Shown here: one piece after another, positions 2,986 to 42,177 of the stretch | Numbering within the stretch: the first letter of the stretch is position 1 | Layout of the letters: each line of letters starts with the position of its first letter | Assembly (NCBI GenBank): GCA_025617745.1 | Contig: CM046853.1 | Coordinates: 12,292,974 to 12,356,973, forward strand | Length of the DNA: 64,000 nucleotides | Direction of reading: 5' to 3' | Source: Heliocidaris erythrogramma | Lineage: Eukaryota > Echinodermata > Echinoidea > Camarodonta > Echinometridae | Translations under genes and position numbers: made by a program | Notes under the pieces: generated by a model | What the model saw: the letters and a program-made list of their open reading frames with translations, nothing else | What the model was told of the DNA's origin: nothing | Databases searched by the model: none

Positions 2986-5336
2986 CGAAAAGAAATGGTG
3001 CAAAATTTCTTTAAAATATGAATCAAAATTACTCGACCTTGACAAGTCTTGACAAGTCTTGACATTATTCTAACATATAACTTTATAAATTACTTTACTT
3101 GAACAATTGCATTTTGATTTTCGTTCGTCGGAAGTAATCGGAAGGGTCTCAAATTGCGAATATTAGGATTTTCAAATTTGTCCCTTTTTCAAAAATTGCA
3201 ACTGCTATCGTACAATTTAATAAAATTTCTGGACACAATTTAAGCTTTTGTATCCATATTTTATCATCTGCTCATTTTTCAGTTCGTTTATTGAAATAAA
3301 AATTGAAGAATTCCCGATATTTTATTTGTGACAAAAATCACTACTCAGCTTTCCGATGAAGTTGGCGGCATCGAACATCGGACATCAAAGGCAACAGGCA
3401 ACCTGTAGATTATTTTGTACATCCTTAGAAAGGGGCAGCTGCTTGAATTAATTTGTTGCCAGTTGTCACTGATTTTTACCGACAACTGTTATAAGCTACT
3501 GGGATCCTTGCATCTGATTGGCTGAGAGCAAATTTGTCAGTAAAAATCACTGACAAAACGCTTGATGAAACGCTACCCAGCTCTTCAAAGCTCCTCGGTA
3601 CACACACATACACACACACACACCCATATTCCTGTAATTGCTTCGTAATTACATTTCATTACCGTTTTATATTTGTTTTGTTTATACCCTATAATTTATC
3701 TTCTTGAAAAACAATGAAGCATTCAAAAAAGTTACAACCGTATGGAGTCATTCTCTGAAAGCTTTTAATCTTCTGTGACCGTTTAGTCTGGAGCAACCAT
3801 CATAGTAAGGTTATGTGGGTTGGGGGGGGGGGGTAGGCGGTTGGTATTCATGAGGATGGACGGTGAAGTAAAAACCTAGTGCTGTAAGATATTCAGTGTT
3901 CAGCCACTTGTAGGTTATATGACACATTCCCAAGGAATACGAGCGGGAGCCGGGTCTGTTGGTAGAGAGGTCTTTATTATTCACGAGCTTATGAAAACAC
4001 ATGTGCAACATCATAACATAAAAACTGTTCTCAAACAATAACACTTGAATGTTGGAATGAACATCATACAACCAATAGTTAGGCTACTTTGCCTCAATTT
4101 AACACAAAGCTTAATTTAAGCATTTACTGTTAACACAAAACAAAGTCAAATATATCCCTTTAAAAACAATTAAGGCATCCATAGACGTGTATGTATACTT
4201 GTACGCCTAGTTATCAATAAAACCAACACTGCGCCTCGGCTTGAGTACATGTAATTCAACCCAAAACTTAAAAACATCTTTTTCCTGTGATTAATATGGC
4301 CTTTAAATACATTAAATTAATCCCAACAACATATCAGAAATGGTTCTCAGTCAACTTCACAGAATGGTAATCCTTTGACTTTGTTAATCTATCCCTAATA
4401 ACATTTTATATCCTAAAACACTTCCAAGGAAGATTAATTACAACCCTGCGAACACACCGTACAATCCAAAATTCACATAACCCTTTAAATGGCATGTTAA
4501 AATATCTATGGATCACTTAAATGCATTCAACATAACACTGATTCATATAAGCCATAAGGTAAAACTCATAAGTCATAACTTAACTACTGTGTTGCTGTGT
4601 ATAATTATGTATTATGACTAAATTGTATTACAACATTCACACAGGCTTGGAAAATAACATAAATTACTCTAATGTGATAGTATAATGACGATTGTGGGAT
4701 ATTTATCAAATCATGCCAACACACCATAAATTCTTGATTCATTTCATACTTCCAGCAATTGCAAAACATCTCTACCATTATTTAATCATTGACCATCACA
4801 GTCTGCACTATAAGATTATCCCAGGCTTAAGGTGCCCTACTCTATTCTCCACAGCACTTTTAAACCCATACATTATACGACTCGGCCATATCTAAATTCG
4901 CTTTATACATCATTATCCTACTTATGTCATCCGCTCCATCTACTAATCTCTAACTTCCATACCCAAATATTATTCTACCTCTATCTCCAAACTTCATCAA
5001 AATAAATATTAAAATCTACCATGTAACAACCATACATGATATTATTAATTCCACTGTGAACCTGCCATATTAATTCAGTACATGCAAATCCCATTGCAAT
5101 ACTGCTTCCCAGTTGCCTTCCATGGGCCTTCACCCATGCCCACGCCTATCATAATGTCCATCGACAGACTGTGCCTTAATTATATTGCCTGGATCATATC
5201 AATGACATACCGATTTGAGCCGATTTGAACATACACATACCATGCGTAACTCATGCACAGAAACACAGTTGAGATGCTGTAAAACATTTCACGTAAAACA
5301 TACTTTGCATATATATGCCTGGGATGATGTCCCTAT
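2986..5336. other. AT-rich intergenic DNA
   Basis: It contains a short CA run (3601-3622), a G run near 3821 and a triple direct repeat of CTTGACAAGT near 3045. I see no coding exon, RNA gene or complete mobile element. Confidence 0.55.
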
Positions 5337-5925: not shown

Positions 5926-6261
5926 AACTTAGCATATTATGAGGCTACAACTACTAGCCTTAACAAGTCAAACAACATCAAAATAACCATACGGGTTATG
6001 CATTTCGTAAAACACCGACTACAGTGAAATAACGTGCTTATAAAAACATGAAATTTAACTTTAAAAACTGACGTTCAAATTAGTGTAAGGCAGAGAGGTG
6101 CCCATACAGAAATAAACGAGGTCCTCTATACACTGTAGTTAACTGTAATTGTAAACACATCGATTCAAGAGCCCTTACAGTTATACCATAAATATACATT
6201 GTTCATTATAGGTTGACAGCTCCCTCACACTCTGCGAGAATCAACGAGACTTATCTTCTGA

Positions 6262-6843
6262 AATGTTATAGGTGCCGAAAACCATACAGCATACGTTTGT
6301 ACTGGAATACACTATCATGTGTAATGAATGCAGTAAGGTATCGGCTGTGTTCTGCAAGGGGAATCTGAAGGTAGCTCCTGCGCATGCATGTCGAGCTTCG
6401 TGAAAATTGTAGAGCCGTGAAACGACGCAGACAGCTCTTGGATGGTAGGCAGACTTTAAGGTCAATACACAGACGCAGTTCCCCATTCTTCCGGCGTGCT
6501 ATCACAACTCGGATTGGATACCCACGGTGAGAAATCTATGTGTTCAATGATATCTTCGCTTTCGAGACGGCGTAGTCTGCAGACACTTCCTCGCGGACTG
6601 CATATGGTAGACGGCGTAAGCTCTGCGAAACTGGACACACTGACTGGTCTACCCCGGGGTGCATGGCAGTACCCTGTAACCACTCCGAAGTTCTCAAACA
6701 GGGATGCATACTCTGCCATATGGGAGTTGATGATGTTGACCTGCTCACCTGAGGGGTCACAGAGGCGGAATCCCAGCATGTCAAATAAGTCAACCCCAAG
6801 GAGGCTCTTACCCTTCGCAACGTAGATCAGACAGTTAACTTTC
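6262..6843 (-). pseudogene. Gypsy-type (Ty3) pol fragment, frameshifted
   Basis: On the minus strand the order of conserved blocks is protease end (GKSLLGVDLFDMLGF), linker (ESEDIIEHIDFSPWVSN), then RT fingers and palm start (IARRKNGELRLCIDLK, then IPLAEHSRYLTAFITHD and FQYKRMLYGF). This order matches the protease-RT junction of Ty3/Gypsy polyproteins. The blocks lie in at least two frames, a segment after LCIDLK is missing, and the YxDD catalytic motif is absent. No LTRs were recognised nearby. The fragment is inactive. Confidence 0.82.
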
Positions 6844-6878
6844 AGCGGTCGTGTCCTATATCTCTCACTTAATCAATG

Positions 6879-7171
6879 AAAACAGATAAAAAGGGTACCT
6901 TTTCAGCAATAAGCGCATAACCCGGTTTACGCGTTTAGGGAATCAAAAAAGGCAAAAAAAGTTATCAAATTCAGAGACTGATAAGAAGAAGATCCGCTGA
7001 AGGGGGGGGGGGGGGGATATAGCTCGGTAATTTGTTCCAAATTAGATTAAATTTCTTTTACGGTTCCTTTTTGGCTAAAAAGAGGTCTGTGATGATGATG
7101 ATGATGATGTAGGCCTTAAATGCGTAGGGTTATGCGCTTATTGCTGAAAAGGTACCCTTTTTATCCGTTTT
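6879..7171. mobile_element. MITE with about 43-bp terminal inverted repeats
   Basis: AAAACAGATAAAAAGGGTAC at 6879 recurs in reverse complement at the right end, and the match continues through CAGCAATAAGCGCATAACCC on both sides. The interior is only about 200 bp, with a G run near 7003 and a short GAT microsatellite near 7092. No coding capacity. Confidence 0.85.
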
Positions 7172-7435
7172 CGTACGTGGATGATGCCTGATGTACCGGC
7201 CTCAATGATTTTGAATGATAATAATACAAATTATGTCAATGAATATATACTGACCCACAATAAAAAGTACCCACTACTTTATAATGGTATATCATATTTA
7301 TATTGACAGACACAGAATGACAATGAACCAGGGTGGAAAGATTGACCTTTTATTGAAACATTTCGGAAGACAATGCTGTCTCTTGTCAGCGCGCATTACA
7401 GCGCAGAACACAAGTTGAAAAATGAAAGTGACAGA

Positions 7436-7625
7436 TCAATAGCGTGTGTGGTCACCATTTGTTTGCAGACAGGCATTGCATCTGCGACGCATACTGCACA
7501 CGAGTCTTTGAATGAAATCTTGTGGAATCCTGTTCCATTCATCTTGCAAAGTCTGGATCAGTTGTGCACGAGTCCTGACCCTGCCAGCAATGCGCCTCCC
7601 AAGCTCATCCCACAGACAGATGGTA
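7436..7625 (-). pseudogene. Tc1-like transposase C-terminal fragment
   Basis: The minus frame ends in LWDELGRRIAGRVRTRAQLI, QTLQDEWNRIPQDFIQRLV and CSMRRRCNACLQTNGDHTRY followed by a stop. That is the extreme C-terminus of Tc1/mariner transposases, just after the third catalytic acid. The upstream DDE core is not recognisable. It is unrelated in position to the other Tc1 remnant at 42463-42725, although the proteins are homologous. Confidence 0.85.
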
Positions 7626-7739
7626 TCAAAATCTGCCCCTACTTCAATCTGCTTTTTAATTCAGCAAGTGATTTACGCGGATGATGTACAGGTCTCAATG
7701 AGACATCGGGGGGGGGGGGGGGCTGGCGGTCGTCGCGAT

Positions 7740-8111
7740 CGATTTGGATAGATTCAGGTGCCTGTAAACTTTTCTGCCTCTTATTATTTTGTGAAAATTA
7801 GGCTCTGTTGGAAGTTTGATATTATGTAAGCATTCCATTACTTTATAAATTGAACTTTCAACAGTTTTTTTTTGTGTTTTTGTTTGGGGGGGGGGGGGGG
7901 ACTGTTTCTTAGTTGAACTTAATTCTTTCTTTGCTACATTTTTTTTTGTGTGGGGTTGATGTTCGATGAGACAGGGTGAAGGGGAGGGACATGTAGCTGT
8001 TCAAATTTTAGGACTCTTTGTTTCAATTTAATTTATTCTACTTTTTACTTATATCATGGAAGCATATACAGGGTAAACTTCCTTTAGCGACAGCCACCTA
8101 AAATGAAAACA
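7740..8111. other. Spacer with G runs
   Basis: AT-rich DNA with a G run near 7887. Nothing else recognised. Confidence 0.6.
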
Positions 8112-8658
8112 ATACAGGGTTGGAAAAAAGTTTGGAATATTTTTATTCCAAGAATTATTTCTTGTCTTAAACATATCCCTCGTCATTTTAAGTTCTTCTT
8201 TGAGGTTCAAATAAAAGATATGTGTCCCTTTTTAACTTTAAAAGCACAACATTAAAAATCAGGCTTATCACACAGTGCAGAGGTCCACTTGGAATTCGGA
8301 AGCGTATATTTGCTGTTTTTGCAAATGTCTAACGAAAAAGTTAAATAATCAGATACAGTTTAATTGCTATACCGAAGTCCTCAAAATGACTGCAAACTGC
8401 ACGTGAAGTACAGAAATGTATAACAAGATGTTCAAACACAAATAGAGCAAATCTGACAACATGTGGTTCATTGGTCAGCCATTGTAACATGTTTAACAAT
8501 ATTACGTAATCTTTGGTACAAGATGGAACAGTAGACTTCATTCAACACAGTTAATCCGATTTGGATGAATTATTCATCACAATATAGTAGAAACTAGCAT
8601 TTAAAATCAGACATACTCATCGCCAAAAAAATATTCCAAACTTTTTTCCAACCCTGTA
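8112..8658. mobile_element. Tc1/mariner-type MITE, copy A
   Basis: The ends are TACAGGGTTGGAAAAAAGTT and its reverse complement; the inverted repeat is about 32 bp and the element is bounded by TA dinucleotides. A second copy, almost identical, is at 28064-28630. Copy A lacks about 20 bp near 8402 between two short ACGT repeats. A short minus-strand frame shared by both copies shows no recognisable domain. Confidence 0.88.
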
Positions 8659-8728
8659 TATAGGGTTAGGGTTGGGGTCAGGGTTGGGGTTAGGGTTTAG
8701 AGTTTAGGGTTTAGGGTTTAGGGTTTAC
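8659..8728. repeat. Telomere-like TTAGGG/TTTAGGG array
   Basis: About 70 bp of TAGGGTTAGGGTT, GGGTT and TTTAGGG units on the plus strand, immediately right of the MITE copy A end. It is an interstitial telomere-like tract of degenerate units. Confidence 0.85.
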
Positions 8729-9742
8729 ATAACTGCACATTGGGGTGGCTGTCGCAGAAGTCATTCCTATTATCAACAACTAAATTGACATGAAAGGGGA
8801 AAATGGCCCTCATACCGTTGAAAACATGTTATTGTATATCGCCTCAAATATATCATTCATTCCCGTATGACAGACAAAACCGATCTGTAGACATCATTCA
8901 GGGGAGGAGAGGTGTAGGTGATCACGTCACTTAGGAATATCGGTTGCCACGGTGTAAAGAAGGAGCACCTCCCCCCCCCCCCCCCACCAAAATTTCCTTC
9001 GAAAATATTTCCACTATCATAATTATGAATACGTATGGGATATTACTCCCGTCTCCCCTCGCGCTGGGGGTGACGGGAGGCCGATGGGGGTGGGGAGGGG
9101 TAGTAGGGAAAAGTCAATCCGTCGGTCCTCCCAAGACCCATATAAGGGGCCATAATCCCCCTGAAAAGAATATGACAATAAAATCATTTTTCTCATTTTG
9201 CATCCTTTATAAAGAGACGTATGCTAACTACGCATGTTATGTTTTCATGGCCTTCATTTCTCTAAGTTATAAACCATGCATATGAACATGGCAAGATCAA
9301 ATCGCTCCCTCTAGCTCTATGCATGGATAACCTATACTACTCGAACATAATTATATCCATGCTCTATGTGCGAGAATCCTGCCCGGGTGTAAATGAGATG
9401 TCTGTCATCCGCAGGACACAGGGCCGACGTAACATAAATAAAATCGTTATTTAGTCATTCATAAAGTAAAACTATCGTCATTTAGTCTTCATAAAGATGA
9501 AAGTGTATTATAACACATACTCATATGTTGTAAATACTGCTTGGTTAAAAAATAACACTTTACCCGACTTTTTTTTTCTTCACTTGAATATTGTGACAAA
9601 TATACGGTACGGTGATTAATCATAAACACAGCTAGCGCCCGTGGATGTCCACGGGCTGCTTCTGCTAGTATACTTATAATGTCTTTGCAACCACTGGAAA
9701 CGGTACAGAAAGTTTTATGCTGCAGTTAGTTACATCTTTAGC
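8729..9742. other. Intergenic DNA between telomere-like tract and duplicated GPCR segment
   Basis: It contains C and G runs near 8970 and 9065-9105. I see no gene. This stretch has no counterpart beside the second GPCR copy. Confidence 0.6.
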
Positions 9743-12475
9743 TTTACTTTGTCAAATGTGTTTCTACTTTGTAATGTTTTCTTTGCCAAATAAAATAATA
9801 ATGATAATAATGCTTTCCCCCTTATTTTTATCTTTAAATTTTTACTACGTCGTCCTTTCGAAGTGTCTGAATATTTGGCTCGCAAGTCTCGCCCGCTTGC
9901 CGACTTTGAGAAAGCCTTGAATTTTATTTTCTAGCAAAAGACAACAGCCGCTCACCCCACCCCATTGAAATAGTGACTGTATGGCCATGGCAATTATTTA
10001 CAATTCTTAAAACTAGCTCCTGTCACCCTATACAAACCGAAAAGTGATACGTTCTCCTACACCTTGTCAACTGAGATACCGGCCACTGCGCCCCCACTCC
10101 CAATTAATACCTGATTGGTAACAAGTTATGACGTATGTCCAGTCCGTTTATTTGAATTGTGAAGCGAATGATGCGCTGTTTACCACATAGACCCATGATC
10201 AAGCAAGATCATCCCTTGTCAGGTCTTCAGATAAGGTTTAGTTAAGCTCCATACCGAAAAGCGGTACGTTCTTTTGTGTGTTGCCCACAAAAACAGCCTT
10301 TATGGCAGAACGAAATTTGGGATAATGGGCTGCGTAGATGAAAGGGTTGATTGACGAGTTGACAAAGGTAATTAAGTTGAGAACGTGACGGAGGGTACCT
10401 TTCACGTAGGCTTTAACAGATCCTCTGAAAGAGGCGACGATAAATGCGATCTGGCCTGGAGCCCAGGATAGAATAAAGACGACTATCACAACCAGCATCA
10501 TCTTGATGACACGATTCCTAGCCAGGATGTGATAGGATTGCTTTGAACTGCGAGACATGGCTCCTCTGAGTCGATTGGATTGTAGATGCAGTGAGATAGC
10601 CATTGCTATCTGGGAACCCAGCAGCAAAACTGTAGGAATCACCAGACGAATGGCAAAATTGAACAAATTAATGATTTGTAAATTATAAGACTCGGTCGCT
10701 GAATTTGTTGGCGTACAATAGATTCGGGAAAGAACATCAGTAACAAAAAAGTACGATAGAAAGTAGTAGGAACATGATAAAAACGAAAACAACCACACAA
10801 CTGTGATAAAGACGTAAACCTTGCGTTTTGTGATGATTTCCTTAAAGCGTAGAGGAAAGACAACCGCTGCTAGGCGCTCAAAAGAGGCTCCCAGTAGGAT
10901 GTAGGTCGACGAAATGACACAGACCCAAGTCAGGGAACTAGTAGATATTATTGGGCAGTAGAGTCCTCCAAGTACTGTATCAGCCACTTGGAGTGCTTTT
11001 GGAACTGGGACAATGCAGACTGATGTCAGCAAGTCAGAGACAGCTAGAGCTGCTATGAAAATATCTGTAGAGTTGTGGATTTACGAACTCCCATTACAAC
11101 GACAACCAAGAGGTTTCCTAGAATGCCAGTTAGAGAAATTATTAATTGAAGGATGGTCACCCATGTCCAGGAGAATTCCCACACCCATATAGTTGTATCC
11201 AAGGCGACCGATTCTGTAGGTAATTCGCCTGTAGTGACAGTGGTAAACTCGCTCATGTATTCTGGAATGGTTAGTAACTGATCGGAGCCATCGGAGCTTG
11301 ATGCGCTTTCGGTGGTGACTGCAGATGATGTAAGCAGAAATGTAGTCTGGGTATTCTCAGAACTCATTTCCGAAGCTTGTGGCAGTTCCTCTGCATCAGA
11401 TGGATCCATCGATGGAGTTTTGTTTGTTGTATGTTCGGATGAATTAACTACGATGACCAGAAAGAGCAAGATGATACGGAGCATTATCCGTGTTTGTTTG
11501 ACTAATTTCTTCATAATTTTTCTTTGGTGAATTTTTTGGCTAAATCAATGGATGAAAAGTTAGGTTTTTGAGTTTATTTCCAGCCACAGTACGTCGAAAA
11601 TGGTGAATCGAATTACATTTTTCGAACAGTTGCATCTAGAAGAACCTAAAGGAGTAAAGAAGGGGGAAAATACGTATAAGCTTTGAGTTCCCAGTGCATA
11701 TGGGCATGATGGGTGACATTACAAAAGAAACTTAAATCGAAGTAGGTATGAGTACACGCTACATAGCTGAGACTCCACCCCTTGCAAAATATTACAACGG
11801 ACTATTATGATGTAAATCATTTGATTCATGAGAGGAGCAACGGGTTGAAAATTAAAAAAAATAAAAACAAATATGAAATACTGATAGGAATAATGGTAGT
11901 AGGCACAGACACAGAGCATAATGAATAGGCCTAAATAATCATGAGAGGATGAATGAATCATGAATTGTAAATTAAGTAAATGACTAAAGATGGTAAACAG
12001 AATATTTTAAACTTAATTTTCACAGACCTTTGTTTTTAAAGGAATATATTTTTAATGGAGAGGCAATTACATTTAATTTTGAGCTAAATTCAGGAAGAAG
12101 ACCGAGTCAATAGTGTCATAAAATTTAATTGAAATCATTAGAATTGTGCAATTTCGTGCAACAGATTTGTATATCAGTTCTGGGTTAGCTCTATACTTTG
12201 AAAGTATGTATTTGCTTTATAAATTATAATAATTATGCCTTTTATGTACAAGGTTGAGAGCCACCTTGTATGTGTTATTCTCATAATATTATTTCAAATT
12301 AAACTTAGTGCTTAGTGATAGAAATATCCATTTGAGGTAAAACTTACCTATGGTAAACCGAAAAGAGCCAAACGATATCTGCGTAGAGTTGATGTGAATA
12401 GGCCAGGCTGGTTTGCATTGCACTTATTTGTACGTTTTAGTACGATCATCCGCGTAGCCGCACTATCCACCCATC
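9743..12475. repeat. Segmental duplication copy A (GPCR pseudogene and flanks)
   Basis: It aligns end to end with 28764-32374, from AAATGTGTTTCTACTTTGTA on the left to CCGCGTAGCCGCACTATCCA on the right. Differences are mostly substitutions and short indels, except for the foldback element that is present only in the other copy. The flanks contain no other gene. Confidence 0.92.
10238..11514 (-). pseudogene. Class A GPCR pseudogene, paralogue of 29259-30542
   Basis: Same protein as the intact copy at 29259-30542, read on the minus strand. The first frame (ATG at 11514, about 147 matching residues) covers the signal peptide, the Ser/Thr-rich ectodomain and TM1. The second (11055 down to 10238) covers TM2 to the C-terminus, including the ERL and NPFIY motifs. 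The break is a 4-bp loss near 11071: the intact copy reads AGTTAGTTGTGG on the plus strand, this copy AGTTGTGG. That shifts frame straight after TM1. This copy also lacks three residues (SEL) of the ectodomain. Apart from the 4-bp change the frame is open, which suggests recent inactivation. Initiation at a downstream ATG would give a receptor lacking TM1. Confidence 0.9.
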
Positions 12476-23719: not shown

Positions 23720-23832
23720 CAGTGGCGGATCTAGCCTGGTAAGACACAATACATTCTAGGGGTCCGCTTTGTTTGTGCACAATGGCGGACCCCTAGAATG
23801 TATTGTGTCTTACCAGGCTAGATCCGCCACTG
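23720..23832. mobile_element. 113-bp perfect-arm palindromic MITE (CAGTGGCGGAT family)
   Basis: Two arms of 48 bp, identical in reverse complement, flank a 17-bp loop. Each end is CAGTGGCGGATCTAGCCTGG. It is flanked by direct repeats ATGCC (23715-23719 and 23833-23837). Copy 2 of the segment (near 33180) has only one ATGCC and no element, so the insertion and its 5-bp duplication are directly visible. Confidence 0.95.
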
Positions 23833-24203: not shown

Positions 24204-25519
24204 AAAGAAAAAAAAGGGCTAAGAAATATTTTTCTCAGGTGAATTTGTCACTATAGGCAAACGTGTATAAATTTGAATACATAACACAAATTGCCTATTT
24301 GTAGTAGCGTATCCATGCACGATGCAGGATAGAATAGAGCCGATGTGTGCTGCCCCTGGCGCTTTGAAGGACCCGCAGAAAATGATAAAACTTTTATATA
24401 GGTCTTACAGCAGCTGCCAGTTACATTCCGCCCCGGGTATAGGGGTGTTTATACATTTCTGGATACGCCACTAAATATTGTATTCAGAAATGACGGTTTA
24501 TAACCATTGAATGGAGGCGCCTTTAACATCTTTGTTGACCTCCATCACTTTGTTTTCAGTTACAGTACAATCACTGAAATAATGTATAATGTTCTGATAT
24601 GTGTTATGTTTTTTGTATCATTGAACAAAATATAATTTCTTAAATTTTCTTAAACTAATAAAACAAAATAATACCAAACAGCGACGCTAAACCATGCATA
24701 TGTACCAAATCGCAATGGCCGCCCACGGTCAGGATTTATTTCCATACGTGCATGAACGTCACAAAACACAACTTAGGTTTTAAAGTTGCCAACTTATTTT
24801 TTTTGTCTTCAGTATTTGAAAAGGTCTTTGAATTAATGTAAGTTTCAGTTTCAATGAGGTATTACTCCTTTGCAAAATATTATTTTGAACGGCATGTTAT
24901 TTGGAAACTGTATTTTGTGACTTTATAGCCCTCTAATGAAAAACATTAGCTTTAGAATTGGTCTCTTTCATTTTCCTCCCAACCGGAGGGGAACTTTAAC
25001 TTTGAGAAAATCTCAATGGAACGTGTTGCTAATTGCTTCTTCATGTGCTCCTGTAATGACCTTTCAAAATTTTAACACAAAATCATGCACTCGGTTTGCC
25101 TATTATTCCTCTATATACTGCACAAATACAGTATACTCCTTTATTGTGATGTGCGTTATTAACAATGGTGATTTCCGAGGGTGAGGGGATTTATTACCAA
25201 GAGCGTGATGGAAAGACCTGATCAACTGTTTTATATTTTCATGGCAGTCAAATATATTTGTCAATTTTGTTCGGACTTCTAATCCTATCAGTGAAAAAAA
25301 TAATGCTTCTCAATCACTGCAAAGCTGCATGTCATGCGGTTAAAAGCACTTAACACATTTCGGTATTTCTTGTGGATTTTGTATATTTGTTGACTTTTTA
25401 TCGCGGAGGTGCATGTCGATAAACAATTCCGTTTATTATTATCATCAGCATCATCATTATTATTTTTATTATTTTATATTATCATCATCATTACCATTAT
25501 TTTTATTTCCATTATTATC

Positions 25520-29258: not shown

Positions 29259-30542
29259 TTAGTTAAGCTCCATACCGAAAAGCGGTACGTTCTTTTGTGC
29301 GTTGCCCACAAAAACAGCCTTTATGGCAGAACGAAATTTGGGATAATGGGCTGCGTAGATGAAAGGGTTGATTGACGAGTTGACAAAGGTGATCAAGTTA
29401 AGAACCTGTCGGAGGGTACCTATCACGTAGGCTTTACCATATCCTCTGAAAGAGGCGACGATAAAAGCGAACTGGCTTGGAGCCCAGGATAGAATAAAGA
29501 TGACTATCACAACCAGCATCATCTTGATGACACGATTCCTAGCCAGGATGTGATAGGATTGCTTTGAACCGCGAGACATGGCTCCTCTGAGTCGACTGGA
29601 TTGTAGATGCAGTGAGATAGCCATTGCTATCTGGGAACCCATCATCAATACTGTAGGAATCACCAGACGAATGAAAAAATTGAACAAATTAATGATTTGT
29701 AATTTATAAGAATCGGAATTTGTTGGCGCACAATAGATTCGGGAAAGAACATCAGTAACAAGAAAATATGATAGAAAGTAGTAGGAACATGATAAAAACG
29801 AAAACAACCACACAACTGTGATAAAGACGTAAACCTTGCGTTTTGTGATGATTTCCTTAAAGCGTAGAGGAAAGACAACCGCTGCTAGGCGCTCAAAAGA
29901 GGCTCCCAATAGGATGTAGGTCGACGAAATGACACAGACCCAAGTCAGGGAACTAGTAGATATTATTGGGCAGTAGAGTCCTCCAAGTACTGTATCAGCC
30001 ACTTGGAGTGCTTTTGGAACTGGGACATTGCAGACTGATGTCACCATGTCAGAGACAGCTAAAGCTGCTATGAAAATATCTGTAGAGTTAGTTGTGGATT
30101 TACGAACTCCCATTACAACGACAACCAAGAGGTTTCCTAGAATGCCAGTTAGAGAAATTATTAACTGAAGGATGGTCACCCATGTCCAGGAGAATTCCCA
30201 CACCCATATAGTTGTATCCAAGGCGACCGATTCTGTAGGTAATTCGCCTGTAGTGACAGTGGTAAACTCGCTCACGTATTCTGGAATGGTTAGTAACTGA
30301 TCGGAGCCATCGGAGCTTGATGCGCTTTCGGTGGTGAATGCAGATGATGTAAGCAGAAATGTAGTCTGGGTATTCTCAGAACTCATTTCCGAAGCTTGTG
30401 GCAGCTCAGACAGTTCCTCTGCATCAGATGGATCCATCGATGGGGTTTTGTTTGTTGTATGTTCGGATGAATTAACTACGATGACCAGAAAGAGCAAGAT
30501 GATACGAAGCATTATCCGTGTTTGTTTGACTAATTTCTTCAT
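29259..30542 (-). CDS. Rhodopsin-family (class A) G protein-coupled receptor, intronless
   Basis: A 427-residue receptor, presumably at the plasma membrane. Residues 1-25 form a signal peptide, then about 90 Ser/Thr-rich extracellular residues with possible N-glycosylation at NSS (24) and NKT (31). TM1 holds GN (136-137), TM2 has LAVSD (D165), and C191 at the start of TM3 can pair with C271 in loop 2. The DRY site is ERL (217-219), TM4 has W245, TM5 P296, TM6 SWAP (352-355) instead of CWxP, TM7 NPFIY (392-396). The C-tail is short. The ATG at 30542 is chosen because it opens directly into the signal peptide. Ligand and G protein unknown; it resembles orphan peptide- or amine-like receptors that are expanded in echinoderms (inference). 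The paralogue at 10238-11514 is broken. Confidence 0.93.
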   Translation of the reverse strand: MKKLVKQTRIMLRIILLFLVIVVNSSEHTTNKTPSMDPSDAEELSELPQASEMSSENTQTTFLLTSSAFTTESASSSDGSDQLLTIPEYVSEFTTVTTGELPTESVALDTTIWVWEFSWTWVTILQLIISLTGILGNLLVVVVMGVRKSTTNSTDIFIAALAVSDMVTSVCNVPVPKALQVADTVLGGLYCPIISTSSLTWVCVISSTYILLGASFERLAAVVFPLRFKEIITKRKVYVFITVVWLFSFLSCSYYFLSYFLVTDVLSRIYCAPTNSDSYKLQIINLFNFFIRLVIPTVLMMGSQIAMAISLHLQSSRLRGAMSRGSKQSYHILARNRVIKMMLVVIVIFILSWAPSQFAFIVASFRGYGKAYVIGTLRQVLNLITFVNSSINPFIYAAHYPKFRSAIKAVFVGNAQKNVPLFGMELN

Positions 30543-30742
30543 AATTTTTCTTTGGTTAATTTTTTTTTTGCTAAATCAATGGATGAAAAGTTAGTTTTTT
30601 GAAAAGAGTTTATTTCCAGCTACAGTACGTCGAAAATGGTGACGAATCAGATTACTCTTTTTCGAACAGTTGCACCTAGAAGAACCTAAAGGAGTAAAGA
30701 AAGGGGAAAATACGTATAAGCTTTGACTTCCCAGTGTATATG

Positions 30743-31567
30743 TACGGAAGCGTTAAAGTGCCATTCGACTTGAAGACTTAATTTATGTCGCCATGTTGAC
30801 TTATAATTCTTGGGAAGTCGACTTGGCAAGATATATATCTCGCCATGACGACATATTTTGGGAAGTCCACTTGGCAAGATAATATATCTCGCCTACGGAA
30901 GCGTTAAAGTGCCATTCGACTTGACGACTTGTCGAGATATTTTATCTCGACAAGTCGACTTAATATCCATATTTTGTCGACTTGTAAAGATATTTATCTT
31001 ACCAGTCCACTTAATAACTTTTATAAGTCGACATGGCGATATAAATTATCTTGCCAAGTCGACTAAACAAAAACAATTATGTCATCATGGCGACATATAT
31101 TATCTTGCCAAGTCAACTTCCCAAAAATTATAGGTCGACACGGCGACATAAATTATCTTACTAAGTCGACTTAACAAAAATACATGTCGTCATGGCGAGA
31201 TATATTATCTTGCCAAGTCGACTTCCCAAAAATTATAAGTGGACAGGGCGACATAAATTATCTTACCAAGTCGACTTAACAAAAATACATGTCGTCATGG
31301 CGAGATATATTATCTTGCCAAGTCGACTTCCCAAAAATTATAAGTCAACATGGCGACATAAATTATCTTACCAAGTCGACTTAACAAAAAAATTATGTCG
31401 TCATGGCGAGATATATTATCTTGCCAAGTCGACTTCCCAAAAATTGTAAGTCGACATGGTTAGATAAATATCTTTACAAGTCGACAAAATATGGATATTA
31501 AGTCGACTTGTCGAGATAAAATATCTCGACAAGTCGTCAAGTCGAATGGCACTTTAACGCTTCCGTA
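30743..31567. mobile_element. Foldback element with 105-bp internal tandem repeats
   Basis: Ends are TACGGAAGCGTTAAAGTGCC and its reverse complement. The main unit (30894-31567) has inverted arms of about 108 bp (30894-31001 / 31460-31567). Inside are units starting ATGTCRTCATGGCGA at 31079, 31184, 31289 and 31395, period 105-106 bp, each made of two related halves around AAGTCGACTT. A left-end fragment (30743-30893) sits directly in front. Because 105 is divisible by 3, long repeat-coded frames appear; they are not genes. GPCR segment A has no element at this site. Confidence 0.93.
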
Positions 31568-32756
31568 TATAGGCCTATGGGCATGATGGGTGACATTACA
31601 CTTAACTTAAATTGAAGAATAGAAATAGGTATGAGTACATGCTACATAGCTGAGACTCCACGCACCCGTTGCAAAATATTATGACGGACTATTATGATGT
31701 AAATCATTTATGAGAGGTCAACGGTTTGAAAATTTAAAAAAATAAAAAGTATGCAAAATTATTTTTCGATGAATATAATATTTGTATAGAACAAATATGA
31801 AATACTGATAGGAATAGTGGAAGTAGGGACACACAGAGACTAATAAAAATAGGCCTAAATAATAGAGGATGAATGAATCATGAATTGTAAATTAAGTAAA
31901 TGACTAAGATGGTAAACAAAATATTTTAAACTTAATTTTCACAGACCATTGTTTTTAAAGGAAGACATTTTTAATGGAGAGGCAATTACATTTAATTTTG
32001 AGCTAAATTCAGGAAGAAGAGCGAGTCAATAGTGTCATAAAATTTAATTGAAATCATTAGAATTGTGCAATTTCGTGCAACAGATTTGTATATCAGTTCT
32101 GGGTTAGCTCTATACTTTGAAAGTATGTATTTGCTTCATAAATTATAATAATTATGCCTTTTATATGCAACGTTGTATGTGGTATTCTCATATTATTTTA
32201 AATTAAACTTAGTGATAGAAATATCCATTTGAGATAGAACTTACCTATGGTAAACTGAAAAAAAAACCCAAACGATATCTGCGTAGAGTTGATGTGAATA
32301 GGCCAGGCTGGCTTGCATTGCACTTATATGTACGTTTTAGTATGATCATCCGCGTAGCCGCACTATCCACCCATACTACCCACCCTTCCCCACACCCACA
32401 CCCACACACACACCCTAACGTGAATGACGTATACGGACACATGCACGCTCGCGCACAAGTCGTTTTGGTATATTTCCATGAAAATATAAAATTTAAAGCT
32501 TTTGTAATTTCAGTAAAGCAGTTTGTTCATCAATTCTTTTTTTTTTAACCGATTTTACCTGATGAATAGAGTGACGTCACGATTACCGCCCATGTATACA
32601 TGCATATATTTTAGATAAATAGCAGTTTGTATTCATTATTAGCATGATTAGCGATTTGATTAGGCCAATATTTAAAGAAAGTTTTCTTTGATTAAATTTC
32701 GTCTTATTGAAAGAATGAATGAAAATTACCTTTACTAAGTATCTTGGAGTAAAATG

Positions 32757-33546
32757 ATGAATAGCAATCAAATAAGAAACTATTTCCTAAATCCTATTTT
32801 CTTCCTATAGTCAGGATAGTGGATACTTTTCCTCTATTTCGAAACTATTTCACTCTCTTTTTCCTGGATAAAAATGTTGAAATTTAAAATTGAAAGTTAA
32901 GATTTCTATCAGACACCACATCAACCTCTTACCATAAACGTGGGAGGCAGGGAAGGGGGCTGCACCCTTCCCTAGAATTTTGAAAATACCATTCGGACAA
33001 CGAGGTGACCCGGCCCCGAATATGTAATTTTTATATTTCATCTTGTGAATTTTGATGAAGAAATCTTAATAGAGCGTCATGCATGTTTTTGCTCGTTTGC
33101 TCGCAAAATTTCGAAACTGGAAATGTGATGTTCAAGGCAAGAGGCATCAGCCCCCCCCCCCTTCGCAAATTGTGCCCTTATGCCTATGCTCTTTTCTCTT
33201 TTCTCTAATAACAAATAACAAATAGGAATGAAGTGAGAAAATATTTGAAGGGTTGTATCAGACTATGACTGGGTCAGGTAAGTTACACCGGCCGCAAATA
33301 GAATATTTTATCGCTCGTTTATGTTCGTGCCTGTAACATACCCTATACGCCATTTTCGTAAAGCTTACCTCTTTGTCAAACTCCTAGTAACGAACTATTA
33401 CAACAAACTGTTACAAGTCATTGTGTTTCAATAGTCAGAATGCAGATTGCATACATTAAGTGTTGCTAGGTTAGGCAAGTCATTTCGTAAAATTTCTTAA
33501 ACTAATAACAAATAATAACAAAATGCGACGCTAAACCATGCATATG
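32757..33546. repeat. Duplicated non-coding segment, copy 2 left part
   Basis: Matches 23270-24700. It lacks the 113-bp palindromic MITE and about 480 bp present in copy 1 after the half-palindrome near 33429. It continues at 40261 after the 6.7-kb insertion. Confidence 0.9.
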
Positions 33547-34639
33547 TCGTCTGTTTGGAGCCAGAAGGGCGTTAACTCATTTTGGCGATTCCGAGATAAT
33601 CGCGTTTAAAGATTTGGACGTGTATAAAAGCTAAAATAGCGATTTAAATGATTTTTTTTTTAGGTTAACTGAAATAAACTACTAAAATGACTTGGCAACT
33701 GAAATATTTTGCTGAAATTGATTGATTAATTCGTTTTAGGGCCAAAATAGTGTTAGCGCCCTTCTGGTTCGGAGAGAAATGGTGAATATTTTGCGGCCAC
33801 AACGCCGCTAACGCGTTAACGCCCTTCTGGCTCAGAAACATTGTGATGATTTTGCGCGCGCGCAAGGGCGTTAATACGTTATTTATACACGCTATACATT
33901 GGAAATGCGCCGTATTCAGCCTTCTACTGCGTTGTCATGGCAATTTTCTGTGTCTGTTCAGTTATATTCTAGATTTAACAGTCATAATGCACAGAAATCA
34001 ATTCCTTATAAAGAAATAAAACAATATTCAAGCGTTTAGAAGTTATATTTCTTTTCCATGGAGCTGTGATTTCACGATTACGATGCTCAATATTCAAACA
34101 GTTTTTGAAAGGTGAAAGCATGCGATGAAGCATAATGCTTACGATCCATTCCCCCTTTTCTACTTTCCCGATGTAGGTTTTGATAATTGGAAAAGGGATA
34201 GATAAAAATTCGAGGACAATTTTCCTCTTTCGTTCTGGAAATTCTTTTCTTGCGGACGGCAGTCTGTTCACTCATCAGAACCTATTTCTACTGGTCTACC
34301 CTCATTACACTAAGTACGATTGTTATTTTTGAAAGCTCACACTTGGCGAAAAAAAATCCTTGCAAACAGTTCAACCCACCTGGTCCACTCATCTTTCTTT
34401 CTTCCTTTTTTCACTTCTTTGAATATTTAACTTTAGCAAACTTCCTTGGGATAAGATATTACACTATTTCTGATAACCATATCAATATTCCCCGCATCCA
34501 TATTTTTTTTCATTTAAGGGAAATTTAGCTTCTTCCATATGTATCATTCTGCTTAACCCATTTCTTAATATTCATTCACTATTCCCCCCCCCCAAAAAAA
34601 AAAATAAACAACACAACAAAACACTAAAACAAAAACAAA

Positions 34640-36308
34640 AACAAAAACCTCTCTCTCTCTTCCCCCTCTATCTTTATCCTCAGGCTCTCTCTCTCTCTCT
34701 CTCTCACTCCCTCTCCACCCCTACCCCATCTCTATATTTGAGGTTATCTGTCTGTCTCTCCTTCTGTCCATTTCCCATGTTTTGTGCAAATGACAAAGTA
34801 ATCACATTTAATAACCAGCAATAGTTAGTCTAGTGCTGTACAAACATACACAGACACATCCTTCTCCATCACATAAACCTAAAAATAAGTATTTAATAAA
34901 ATTTCAAACAACCCAAATTCAATGTTTTAGATATCATGAAAGAAGTAATTAATCTGGTATTATAACGTTCACATGACGCTGTATATGTTTAATACACACT
35001 CTTCAAATTGATGCTTTAAAAGACTGCCACGAAATAAAATTAGATATACAATCATTTTTTTACATGAATATTTATATCAAGTGCAATACCTGCTGAAAAT
35101 ATATGAAAGCATCGTAAATGTACATGCACATACAATTTACAAACTAAGCAAAGACAATTCATGATGGCAGTTGTCTTTTACTTGAATTCATTCATAAGTG
35201 CTAACAATCTCAGTCTACAATATTAGCAGAAGAAATGAACTTGACATAGAATAGTACAATAATTTTCCGATAATTCAATTTGTGAATTCAGAATATCTTC
35301 ACCTTAACAAAAATGTGTCTGTCATTTATATGCGCGTCTTTGCAATAATATGATGTACTGCTTGGCCTGGAAGTAAAACCTGTACAATCTGAAAGTACAA
35401 TCTGAACTCGTACTGTGCCAAGAGGTTTAGCTCTCTTAAAATTTTACCAAAATGTGATGTTACTTTTCAAATATCTGCACCTCATTAACCAACTATCATT
35501 TCAAAAAATAATGTGTACAATATTATAGGAAATTTATGACCATTTCTTATGATAACAAACATTATTACATTATCCAACTTTATGCATAACAATTATTAAA
35601 ATTACATTTGAGTTTCTTTTTTGTCCATTATTTTTGGGTTTCTCATTTGTTCACTATTTAATGTTGAAATAAAGTAATCTTTTTAAAGATCTGCACTTTT
35701 TTCTGAAAAATTCTATGGTAGCATATAACTATAATCATAATATATTTAGAGTGCTTAATTATGCTCAAAATTTTGATATACATTGACCACCATATACCTT
35801 TCCTGTGGTCAAGCAATTGGTGAATGAAAATGACAAGTCTATCTGTCACATATACATGACATCGGCACTGAAAGAGTTAAACCATCAATAACTCATATTT
35901 GAAGGTTTGTCACTTGCTTCCTTTTGTCGAAGTAGGGTAGAATAGCAAATGACATCACAATATCTTTAAAATAGCACTATCTTTCATTAAATATCAATGC
36001 TATTACATGGAGTAGGATAGTCTATTATAATTTTAATATAAATAAATGGTAAATCTCTCAATATCAATTCAGGCTTTGAAGTACAATAAACTTCAACTTA
36101 AAAAGAAAACGGTCATTTTTTAGTCATGTTGGATGCTGGAGTACATTGATGTATTTAATATCAAGAAGTTTTGAGTAAACACCATATGCATCTTTTTCTT
36201 TACCAATAAATAATGAATTGAACCCCCTCCCATTAGCTTGGGTGAAGAAGCTGTATATGTAGGCATCATTCATGTACAAAAAAATCTAGGAATATTATTA
36301 ATCTATCT
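34640..36308. other. CT microsatellite then AT-rich DNA inside the 6.7-kb element
   Basis: CT tracts lie at about 34648-34660 and 34683-34715. The remainder is AT-rich and without exons. On the minus strand it lies downstream of the stop codon at 36309, so part may be 3'UTR (inference). Confidence 0.45.
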
Positions 36309-37990
36309 TTAATTGGTCTTCTTTCTTGCCATTTGCATTTCTTTCTCCTGTCTCTCATGTTTTTTCCAAAGAATGCGATTTCTGCATGCATCTTCTTGTT
36401 TCTGGTCATTGATCTAATAAAAAGGAGAGAGGGAGAGAAACAAGGAGAGTAAAAGAGTGAGTGAGTGTGTGTGTGAGAGAGAGGGGAGGGGGCATAGGGG
36501 AGGGAAAGAAAATAAGAACTTGTTTAATACAAAATATTAATTCCAACATATAATTATTTCGTTTATTCAGCTCTTTTTGATACATTTAAACAAGAGGAAT
36601 ATACACTGTAGAACAACCCATTGCACTAAAACAGTAAAACAAAGCAAACAAATATTAAATTAAAAAAATATTAACCAAAACTTTGAATAATTAGCTCTAG
36701 CTGGAAAACCATTTAGAATCAGTCTGAAAATAAAAACATAACTGAAATGAAAAGAAAATACAAATTAAGCCAGTCCATAAAAGGAATATTTGTGAAAAGA
36801 TTAAAGGGAGCGACAAGTCGCAATCTATGGGCGGTTTTACTGTTGGCTGCTCCTTTCTCTGGATCAAAGTTCAAAGCGATTTCAATTTATCGCGCGCAGC
36901 TAATAAAAGTTCGCACATTGACCCAGATTTGAGTAAACAAGATCGCCCGTTCTTTATTCCAGTATTTGAATCTCATTGGTCGGTTACGTATGTAGGGATT
37001 CGAGTTAACGATCAAGCGAGGAATTCGGCAATAACATTCCTTCGGTAGCGCACGATTGGACCTGAATGTATCCGAATTTCCCCGAGTCAGGCCAACTGGT
37101 CAGGCCCATGGATTACGACTTGCCAGTCCCTTTAACATGAATCATTTCAGATATCCAGTGAAATGAAGTCCATGCAATGTTAGAACATGATCTTTGCTTT
37201 AATTGTATGGTTATCATTCTTCATTCCCGAATGCTGTAACTGCTTCAAATAAAATTAAATCCTGCCATACCTTTCATACCTTCACTGATGTAAAAGATAC
37301 TGGTGATTCTGACAGCCTCTTGAGTATTACGTCCTAATCCCAGATGCTAAGCTTGCTTCTCTGATTTCATCAAACAGTCGGGGCCTATTAACAAGTTACA
37401 ATTAAGAGGCATGCATTGTTTATATTTCAGCCATTAGTTATTAATATGAAAGGAAAGTTTATCTATCAATCAACACAATCTATTTTTTTTTCATGTATTA
37501 TTTTACACACACAAAAAAATGACAATTTATTCATCATCCATGATTCTACACGTAACTTAAAATATCCAGAAACAAATCCTGGAATCATTCAAACAGATGG
37601 CTTTCACTTTTTGTCAGCCTCTTCAGTTTGTGTTATGGATGTTCTTTCAGCAAATATACAAACTGAAAAAAACCCAACAGAATGGACTGATTCTGTGTCT
37701 TTTATTAGCATGATTACAAATGCTATATACTACCTTTATCTTTTAAACTACATCTATGGCAAACATGAGAAAAACAAAGTGATATCCACCTCTCATCTAG
37801 AATGATCTCACTCATTTACAATGATGGAAATTATTTTAACTTTATTACAACCACTACATGGATGTAATATTATGAACATACCTCTATATTTTATGATTAT
37901 ATTGCATCCCTGTTGCTGGAGTAATAGACAGTTCAATCGGTTCATCATAGCCAAAGGTGTTTGATCAAGTCCCATGTGAGAAACCAGTGC
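36309..37990 (-). CDS. Three-exon gene fragment of unknown function inside the 6.7-kb element
   Basis: Exon-like segments on the minus strand: 37882-37990 (acceptor TATTTCCAG, donor GTATGT; frame contains GLDQTPLAMMNRLNCLLLQQ), 37608-37662 (acceptor TTTTTTTCAG, weak donor GTGAAA; CIFAERTSITQTEEADKK), and terminal 36309-36414 (strong pyrimidine tract then TTATTAG; GKKHERQEKEMQMARKKTN then stop). Intron phases fit: the first ends in phase 1, the middle one is 55 nt and ends in phase 2, and the last opens in that phase. The encoded tail is basic and probably helical. I do not recognise the protein. The upstream start is unresolved. It may be an element gene or a captured host gene. Confidence 0.5.
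36801..37135. mobile_element. MITE flanked by TTAA, nested in the 6.7-kb element
   Basis: Left TTAAAGGGAGCGACAAGTCG and right CGACTTGCCAGTCCCTTTAA form imperfect inverted ends, continuing through AATCTATGGGC / GCCCATGGATT. TTAA lies at both ends, as for piggyBac- or Kolobok-mobilised MITEs. It sits in the intron between the 36.4-kb and 37.6-kb exons. Confidence 0.85.
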
Positions 37991-38637
37991 CTGGAAATAC
38001 ACACATATATGGCATTATCACATATTCATATTTGGTATATAAATTCACAAAATAAAAATGTTCTCTTGTACAAGTGTGTTTGATGAAAAAGATGTACCCC
38101 AAACAAAATTAAATAAGAAAGATTCTTTAAGTGCCTAGTAGCATGCAAGTGCTTGTCAATTGAAATTGCATAAAGGACTTTCCATATTTTGACTTTCACC
38201 ATAATGTATCTACTAGTGATACTAGTGATAGGTAATCATAATTCATATTAATTCAAAAATTCATATTTCAACTGATTTATTTAATGAGACTAATAAAAAA
38301 CACATTAAATATGTTCTTTTGTAAGAAAATTGCATAATTTTGTATCTATTACACTAAAAAATGTTTTCAACAGTTTCGGATTAGTCCTAATTCAAAGACC
38401 CCATAAAAAGTGTATAAAATGAACTTGCATTAAGCTCTATAAAATGACTGAAGCAGCAGTCTACAAGGAAATACAATGCAATATTCTACAATGTACTTCA
38501 TCTATAAAATGCAACTGATTTTTTTTTTTAAACATTGACTAAGCCTCCAATTTTTCAGTGCATTCTAGCTGAAACATTCCAAACCCATGGTCATCCTGAG
38601 TGATAAGCAATCATTCAATACAAATATTTCCAACAGT

Positions 38638-38650
38638 GTATATATATATA

Positions 38651-38681
<31 letters not shown>

Positions 38682-38682
38682 T
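38638..38682. repeat. AT dinucleotide microsatellite
   Basis: A TA run interrupted by TGTACA. Confidence 0.9.
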
Positions 38683-38773
38683 ACTGAAAATTACATGTAT
38701 ATAGTACCCTATACTATTATCTGATCCTAGCTTACAGATGTAGTTTGATAAAGACTACACTACTGAAATTTAC

Positions 38774-38900
38774 CTCAAAGCTCCTGCAGTAGTGTTACGT
38801 CCTCAGAATCATCTAATGAAGTCTACTGGGCAATTCCACTGTATCGAACACTCCCTGTCAACTCCACCACCACATCTGTGTCTGGATCCAGCATCTTGCA
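38774..38900 (-). pseudogene. Exon-like segment with stop codons, upstream of the unknown gene
   Basis: Bounded by TTTTGTGTAG and GAG/GTAAAT on the minus strand. One frame reads KMLDPDTDVVVELTGSVRYS, GIAQ, stop TAG, then TSLDDSEDVTLLQEL, stop TGA. Both halves look protein-like in the same frame, so it could be a coding exon damaged by two nonsense changes, or a 5'UTR exon. Its phase does not join cleanly to the exon at 37882-37990. Confidence 0.35.
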
Positions 38901-39445
38901 CTACACAAAATAAAATAACAGTTAACATGGGAATGATATGCCAGTCAGTGCATAATATTGGAATTTTATCAAATTTATGTTGACTTTATTCTTAATTTAT
39001 GTAATCACAACTTTGCATTTAAAAGTGTGGTGTTTGAAACAATAAAAAAGCCCAGACCTTTGTAAAACACTGTGAAACATTGTGATTATTTTCAACTCAG
39101 TAAATATTATTAATTATTACCGGTAATAGCCCCACTCCTCACCTTTGATAATGTTGAATACTGTTAAACCACACATTTTCTTAGTCATGGGCAAGACTCC
39201 TTTTTATTATTGATAACAAATACTTTAGATCTTTCAGTCAGCATCTAAACTGATCAAGGGACAGAGTTATTACTCATAGTCATACCCTTTTTATGCACAT
39301 ACCAACAAGCAAGTAGTTACAAGGTTTAATTCCTTGGAACTTACAGAATCTGCTATGTTTCATTGTCCTATTTGTAGAATAAGAATAGGTAGACCATATA
39401 TCTGACATTAGATCAAAGACTTTAGTAGCTCCAGGTAGAACTTAC

Positions 39446-39464
39446 CAAAATCTTCTTCGCCCAT
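39446..39464 (-). CDS. Possible first coding exon (MGEEDF)
   Basis: ATG GGC GAA GAA GAT TTT G is followed directly by a strong donor, GTAAGT. An inverted copy at about 39661-39730 (plus) keeps the same reading MGEEDF with only synonymous differences (GAG/GAA, GAC/GAT), but has no donor there. An upstream ATG five bases earlier in another frame (MPWAKKIL) is the alternative. Linkage to downstream exons is unproven. Confidence 0.35.
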
Positions 39465-42177
39465 GGCATTAGTCTGGTCGGTCGCCAAGGCAAGCCAATC
39501 GAGTCATTTGAATCTACGGTACAGTACGGGGGAACATCGGCTCGGTGAGGAAATTTCATTTGTTTCATCGAAATAATCATCAAAACGTGAAATCAAAGTG
39601 CCTGCTGGATAGTTACAGTTATTCTCTTGAAATGTAAGTACAAATTTCCATCTTACCTGCCGAAATTAAGCGATGCGACCGACCAAACTAATGGGCGAGG
39701 AAGACTTTTGTTGTAGGCCTACCTGGTGTTAGAGTTTGCACGTATTTGTATACACTAACACAAATATGAATACATGGGGCAGTGTTAGAGAACTTTTGCA
39801 CATTACGCCGTTACAAATGAAGGAGGAATTTATATTCATGCGATATACCTCCCTTTATACACACAGAAATTATGAAAAACATTATAATTGATAAAATTTG
39901 TATTTGAAACTTACCATAATGAGGGATTCTACCAGTTCTGGCCGATTCTTGCTTGGTTAACGCCCTCCGTGCCGTACGGGATGGAGGAAAACGCATCGAA
40001 CCAGAAGGGCGTTAACGCAATTTCGAGGGTTAGCGCCCTTTTGGCCCGTAATAACCCTACTTTACGCCCTTCTGGCTCGAAATCATAATATACATAACTG
40101 TTAACGCCCTTTTGTTTTTGGAATATATAGTTAGATATATATATGATCCTGCTACATAATAGATATCATTAGAAAGAGCAGAACGAGATCTACAAGATGA
40201 TACCAATAACTCCATAACCCCAAAAATCGAGTTAACGCCCTTCTGGCTCCAAACAGACGATGTACCAAATCGCAATGGTCGCCCACAGTCAGGATTAGTT
40301 CCAGAACGTCACAAAACACAACTTAGGTTATAAAGTTGCCAACTTATTTTTTTTCTTCAGTCTTTGAATTAATGTAAGTTTCAGTTTCAATGAGGTATTA
40401 CTCCTTTGCAAAATATTATTTTGAACGGCATGTTATTAGAAAACTGTATTTTGTGACTTTATAGCTCTCTAATGAAAAACATTAGCTTTAGAATTGGTCT
40501 CTTTCATTTTCCTCCCAACCGGAGAGGAACTTTAACTCTGAGAAAACCTAAATGGAACGTGTTGCTAATTGCTTCTTTCTCTTTCTTCACTTCAGAGAAC
40601 TCCCTGTGCTCCTGTGATGACCTTTTAAAATTTCTAACTCACAATCATGCACTCGGTTTGCCTATTACTCCTCTACTGTACCTCATTTATTGTGATCTGC
40701 GTTATTAACAATGGTGATTTCCGACTGAGGGGATTTATTACCAAGAGCGTGATGGAAAGACCTGATCAACTGCTTTATATTTTCATGGCAGTCAATATAT
40801 TTGTCAATGTTGTCTTGAGGGCTAAATGGACGTCTAATCCTATTAGTGAGAAAATAATGCTCCTCAATCACTGCAAAGTTGTCATGCGGTTAAAGCACTT
40901 AACACACTTAGGTATTCCTTATGGATTTTGTATATTTGTTGACTTACCATTTTTTATCGTGCAGGTGTCGATAAACAATTTCGTTTATTATTATCATTAT
41001 CATCATAATCATCATCATCATTATTATTTTTATTATCATTTATTTATATATTATCATCATCATCATTACCATTATTTTTATTTCGATTATTATCAATATT
41101 ATTAATGTTGTTATTATTTCTTGTTGTTAATTTGGAAAAATCTTGCAAAAACAAGAAAAGGTGAATTGGAAAGGCCCCTACTACGGTATTAGAGCGCTCA
41201 CCTCTAAATAGAAAATTAATAGTCCCAACAGAATGAAATTCAGCTGCGATTTTGAAACTTTTTAACAACGCTTTCTTGTCTTGTATGTCTTCCATCATTC
41301 CACTCCCCTGATTAACTTTCGGAATCTACTCTGACTCAAGTATTTCTTTCTTTCCCTTGTCCAGGTTCCTTGTTCTGGTTCTAAATCTTATTAACTATAA
41401 ACACGCTTACAGCTATGATATAGACATAATTTCTTTCTCCTTAACATGTATTTTTTTCCTCGCAGCACCTTTGATAAGCATGACAAGACTTAAGCCTCGG
41501 TCACAAATACCATTAAGAACTGCTACGAATGCCGTAGGAAAGATTTTTAGACCATTTCGTAAGATCTTGTCAAGAAGGCCGTACGAAACCAGCGTTCGTA
41601 GACCGTTCGTAAGTTTGCAGCCGGGTCGATGGTCTTGTCCAAGATTTGTTTCAACGTCGTACGAAACTCCTCTTCGTAAGGCAGCCGTACGAACGTCGTA
41701 AGAACATCGTAAGAACCACGCAAGATTTTGTAGGGTCGAGAGACAATTATAGAAGCCTTAAATTCTTACGGTGATCCTAAGAACGCCTTAAGTCGTTCAT
41801 AGAGGGCTCTAACATTTATTATGATCTGCGTTATTAACAATGGTGATTTCCGACTGAGGGGATTTATTACCAAGAGCGTGATGGAAAGACCTGATCAACT
41901 GCTTTATATTTTCATGGCAGTCAATATATTTGTCAATGTTGTCTTGAGGGCTAAATGGACGTCTAATCCTATTAGTGAGAAAATAATGCTCCTCAATCAC
42001 TGCAAAGTTGTCATGCGGTTAAAGCACTTAACACACTTAGGTATTCCTTATGGATTTTGTATATTTGTTGACTTACCATTTTTTATCGTGCAGGTGTCGA
42101 TAAACAATTCCGCTTATTATTATCATTATCATCATAATCATCATCATCATTATTATTTTTATTATCATTTATTTATA

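Follow-up and report, generated by a model that had tools for sequence, protein, structure and literature searches.

A probable Sola2-like non-autonomous transposon and its young family in the genome of Heliocidaris erythrogramma

The piggyBac and Kolobok transposons use TTAA target duplications, those of Kolobok being 4 bp long; hAT and Mutator elements make duplications of 8 bp and 9 bp, respectively, and duplications of 4 bp are possible for Academ and Chapaev. The Sola2 elements of amoebozoa, according to the portion of PMC3627910 used here, have 4-bp duplications of the type AWWT, that is, ATAT, AAAT and ATTT, and in that portion a 4-bp duplication is described as consistent with Sola2. 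The element reported here, located in a window of 64,000 nucleotides from H. erythrogramma (the whole stretch of DNA that was analysed), is probably a Sola2-like non-autonomous transposon.

The insertion, its ends and its subterminal motifs

Comparison of the window with itself revealed an empty paralogous site, CATATGTACC, with ATGT at 24700–24703, and homologous flanks which align on both sides. The corresponding filled site reads ...CATATGT/CGTCTG...CAGACG/ATGTACC..., and the part common to the two sites is the 4-bp ATGT. This confirms the original prediction for this locus, which had recognized a real insertion from the empty site near 24.7 kb. The 2-bp TG duplication that it proposed is only the middle of ATGT, and in 18 of 18 other two-ended copies the duplication is likewise 4 bp. 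The inverted ends, predicted to be exact over 32 bp, are indeed exact inverse copies but over 31 bp, the outermost T/A belonging to the duplication; since ATGT starts with A and ends with T, this outer pair was mistaken for inverted repeat. Repeats are abundant in the window, and one might consider an artefact of assembly or of repeats, or suppose that the 24.7-kb site suffered a deletion and that nothing was inserted here; since the 4-bp duplication is exact in all of 19 copies, each at a different place, such an explanation has a negligible probability.

Nine matches to the motif CCAGAAGGGCGTTAAC (three or fewer mismatches) were found in the whole window, and all of them lie within ~305 bp of one or the other end of the element; in 100 shuffles the average was 0.26 and no shuffle gave more than 2. 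This bears out the prediction that the terminal motif recurs in both orientations within the outer 300 bp. The number and order of the motifs are identical in both arrays of all 19 copies compared, and we would suggest that these arrays are putative transposase binding sites.

The coordinates of the element and its parts are collected in Table 1. Over its length the window copy is 99.6% identical to copy L036 on contig C5. Relative to another copy, L033, it is without ~205 bp near 38471, apart from the differences listed in the table.

Table 1. Coordinates of the element and of features within it (positions in the window)
Feature	Position	Strand	Basis
Target site duplication ATGT, left copy	33544..33547		Empty site at 24700-24703; exact 4-bp duplication in 19/19 two-ended copies
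Whole element, 6,712 bp	33548..40259		Empty-site comparison; near-identical copy L036 on contig C5 (99.6%)
Left 31-bp terminal inverted repeat	33548..33578	+	Inverted-repeat search; copy comparison
Left array, three CCAGAAGGGCGTTAAC-like motifs (33561 +, 33752 -, 33815 -)	33561..33830		Motif search; 19/19 copies
Nested insertion of 327 bp, flanked by TTAA (36801-36804, 37132-37135)	36805..37131		L033 keeps empty TTAA site
36-aa exon-like stretch between splice-like borders, intact in only some copies	37882..37990	-	Open-frame reading; genome search; copy comparison
Junction, ~515 bp of L033 missing	38837..38838		Element positions 5290/5291 against L033 5161/5677
Right array, six CCAGAAGGGCGTTAAC-like motifs (39956 -, 40001 +, 40029 -, 40060 -, 40100 -, 40231 -)	39956..40246		Motif search; 19/19 copies
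Right 31-bp terminal inverted repeat	40229..40259	-	Inverted-repeat search; copy comparison
Target site duplication ATGT, right copy	40260..40263		Comparison with empty site; 4-bp duplication in all two-ended copies

Elsewhere in the window two paralogous rhodopsin-type GPCR genes lie on the minus strand at 10238–11544 and 29259–30575, the Pfam 7tm_1 domain being present in both translations. An array of 53/105-bp units, with inverted outer arms of 41 and 111 bp, occupies 30739–31571. At 23720–23832 two perfectly inverted 48-bp arms, separated by a spacer of 17 bp, are perhaps a small MITE.

Copies and termini in the genome

Both ends of the element served as queries against the genome from which the window derives (1.06 Gb in 26 contigs). 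For the right end the best 40 of 115 candidate places were scored, and 34 of these 40 are at least 96% identical, the place in the window itself being included in both figures; for the left end the best 40 of 74 candidate places were scored. Of the 39 other listed right-end places, 20 were taken for copy comparison together with the surrounding 10 kb, and 18 of these 20 stretches contain both ends. One concern attached to the original prediction was that the ends might be independent MITEs at unrelated distances; instead these 18 are paired units of 6.7–8.3 kb with matching duplications. With the window copy included, most of the 19 copies are near 7.0–7.1 kb. CGTCTG is terminal in 18 of them, the left end of copy L047 being TGTCTG.

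All 18 further two-ended copies possess exact 4-bp duplications, which brings the count to 19 of 19 with the window copy, and none extends to 5 bp. The sequences are ATAT (11 copies), ATTT (2), AAAT (2), and ACTG, CTAT, TTTT and ATGT (one each). Hence 15 of the 19 conform to AWWT, against a background of 4.6% for the remainder of the window; ATGT, the duplication of the window copy itself, and three others fall outside this pattern. When the flanks of the 18 fetched pairs were shuffled a mean of 7.3 and a maximum of 14 pairs matched (observed, 18), the mean being this high because many of the sites are ATAT. Pairwise identity among the 19 copies averages 97.9% (range 94.5–99.9%) and the family is therefore young. 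The DNA transposon family to which the element belongs has been active recently.

Two of the fetched stretches deserve separate mention. In L038, where the left end is listed just outside the stretch and which is not among the 18 two-ended copies for that reason, a LINE-like open frame of 1005 aa (judged by eye) is nested in the family copy at 6063–9077 on the minus strand. L043 was considered as a long autonomous copy and rejected, being a lone right end of 333 bp (9284–9698, contig C9) across which the adjoining 83 bp recur inverted at 97.6% identity. It looks as if it were an aberrant transposition product, and a six-frame Pfam scan of it at E up to 0.5 gave no match.

With three or fewer mismatches allowed, the genome contains 9,577 matches to the 22-bp terminus (4,841 and 4,736 on the two strands), while the reversed 22-bp terminus, serving as control in the same search, has none. 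On contig C1, AWWT precedes 56 of the 93 listed exact 22-bp ends. Among the matches listed, at least seven pairs of exact ends on this contig start 54 bp apart and so delimit 76-bp elements. Such elements, for example that at C1 8205800–8205875, carry the ends of the family, and AWWT is found on both sides in six of the seven listed C1 pairs. Outside this genome a 19-base terminus gave two matches in bacterial and archaeal genome contigs, which by our own estimate is about the level of chance, and a 21-base terminus gave none in viral contigs. A full-text literature search with a 12-base piece of the terminus returned nothing related in the text it covered.

The interior and a candidate source of transposase

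As predicted, the interior is without a recognised transposase, in that a six-frame Pfam scan of the window copy (E up to 1) produced no match. Compared singly with Pfam, eight ORFs gave one match below the cut-off (SPAN, 14.3 bits vs 24.8, E 0.05); the exon-like peptides matched nothing in Pfam or PDB, and the only Rfam match, also sub-threshold, lies in a TA repeat. The interpretation of the locus as a single inserted element in which no transposase is recognisable is supported.

Spliced exons had also been predicted. Exon-like open stretches with splice-like borders do exist on the minus strand, but in the clearest of them, that of 36 aa, two of 19 copies have mid-exon shifts with stops and six are one base short. 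In view of these shifts and missing bases a working gene is unsupported. One might still suppose that a host gene supplied the interior by capture, as in Pack-type transposons, a possibility which would be compatible with the explanation favoured below. Of 47 genome matches to the 36-aa piece, 41 are inside recognised copies and six are elsewhere, two on contig C12 (E 1.7e-5) and four on contig C2 (E 0.006–0.33), which speaks in favour of capture. Against it, the four C2 matches are weak, the second exon-like piece matches copies exclusively (41 of 41), the frames are disrupted in some copies, and the exon-like parts, with a divergence similar to that of the rest of the element, are conserved no better than the remainder. 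We therefore regard gene capture as possible but doubtful.

Two exact termini lie 13.4 kb from each other at C1:66357142–66370546, the right end of this larger element being 86% identical to that of the window copy over 306 bp. AWWT precedes neither of its ends. The Pfam profile PF25273 (DUF7869) was searched in this genome and in 14 control genomes; it has 54 matches in the former and none in the latter. One of the 54, at C1:66362647–66363024, falls in an open frame of 588 codons inside the 13.4-kb element. The chance that any of the 54 would fall in these 13.4 kb is ~7e-4, or, allowing for the five noted long end pairs (~101 kb), roughly 5e-3 by our own estimate. At 44.1 bits (E 9.2e-9) this match is modest, and as it is one of 54 in the genome, the frame may alternatively belong to a nested unrelated element. 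Since neither exon-like piece has a match in the 13.4-kb element, its interior is probably unlike that of the 7-kb copies. The search for a related autonomous copy, proposed with the original prediction, has yielded a DUF7869 frame between the same ends, the protein of which is a candidate for the transposase. We consider this sibling the likely source of transposase.

On balance we think it rather probable that the window element is non-autonomous and belongs to a young cut-and-paste family, most like Sola2, which is mobilised in trans by the 13.4-kb DUF7869 sibling. The transposase would be supplied by this larger relative in the same genome, would bind the subterminal CCAGAAGGGCGTTAAC arrays together with the 31-bp ends, and would then excise the element. 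Insertion at AT-rich, roughly palindromic AWWT sites would presumably generate the 4-bp duplication. Should the DUF7869 link be true, it would suggest a likely role for a domain of unknown function, and a system whose non-autonomous partners are in part very large and in part very small would become testable.

Affiliation of the family

Several superfamilies are at variance with the duplications found. Those of 4 bp in 19 of 19 copies do not fit Tc1/mariner (TA), nor do they fit hAT and Mutator, no duplication reaching even 5 bp. The CCGG or CCGT of Ginger1 occurs in 0 of 19 copies. While piggyBac and Kolobok share the length of 4 bp, their TTAA, in contrast to the AWWT that predominates here, also occurs in 0 of 19. 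Ginger2/TDD elements have both a 4-bp duplication and AT-rich targets in common with this family, but their termini, in the part of PMC2836005 used, are TGTNR as opposed to CGTCTG here, and on these termini Ginger2/TDD was rejected.

The suggestion of an undescribed superfamily is unsupported: it was based on a 2-bp duplication which is really 4 bp, and an AWWT 4-bp preference is published for Sola2 (PMC3627910, in the part used). What appeared to be a candidate for a new superfamily becomes a provisionally placed family with a concrete candidate for its enzyme. The tie to Sola2 consists of the length and sequence of the duplication, and a non-autonomous element of another superfamily with 4-bp duplications, such as a relative of Academ or Chapaev, might be envisaged instead. 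The AWWT preference, seen in the copies and before the listed exact C1 ends alike, fits the Sola2 pattern described in that part of PMC3627910, and we consider such a relative unlikely.

Overlapping with this alternative is the proposal that the DUF7869 protein is the transposase of a lineage so far undescribed as such. Its open frame sits between exact ends of the family, and a literature search for "DUF7869" found no paper in a collection covering part of the literature. Given that 53 of the 54 DUF7869 matches have no observed tie to these ends, and that the duplication pattern already agrees with Sola2, the proposal appears improbable. Quite as speculative is its broader form, that a DUF7869 transposase from a lineage unrecognised as mobile drives thousands of ends, from the 76-bp miniatures to bodies of 7–8 kb in which no coding domain is recognisable.

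Membership in Sola2 is likely by the length and sequence of the duplication. The amoebozoan families, in the portion of PMC3627910 used, have inverted ends of 12–13 or 21 bp, whereas those of the present family measure 31 bp and are accompanied by subterminal arrays. The AT-rich duplication of the AWWT type is the same in both, being 4 bp in 19 of 19 copies and AWWT in 15 of 19.
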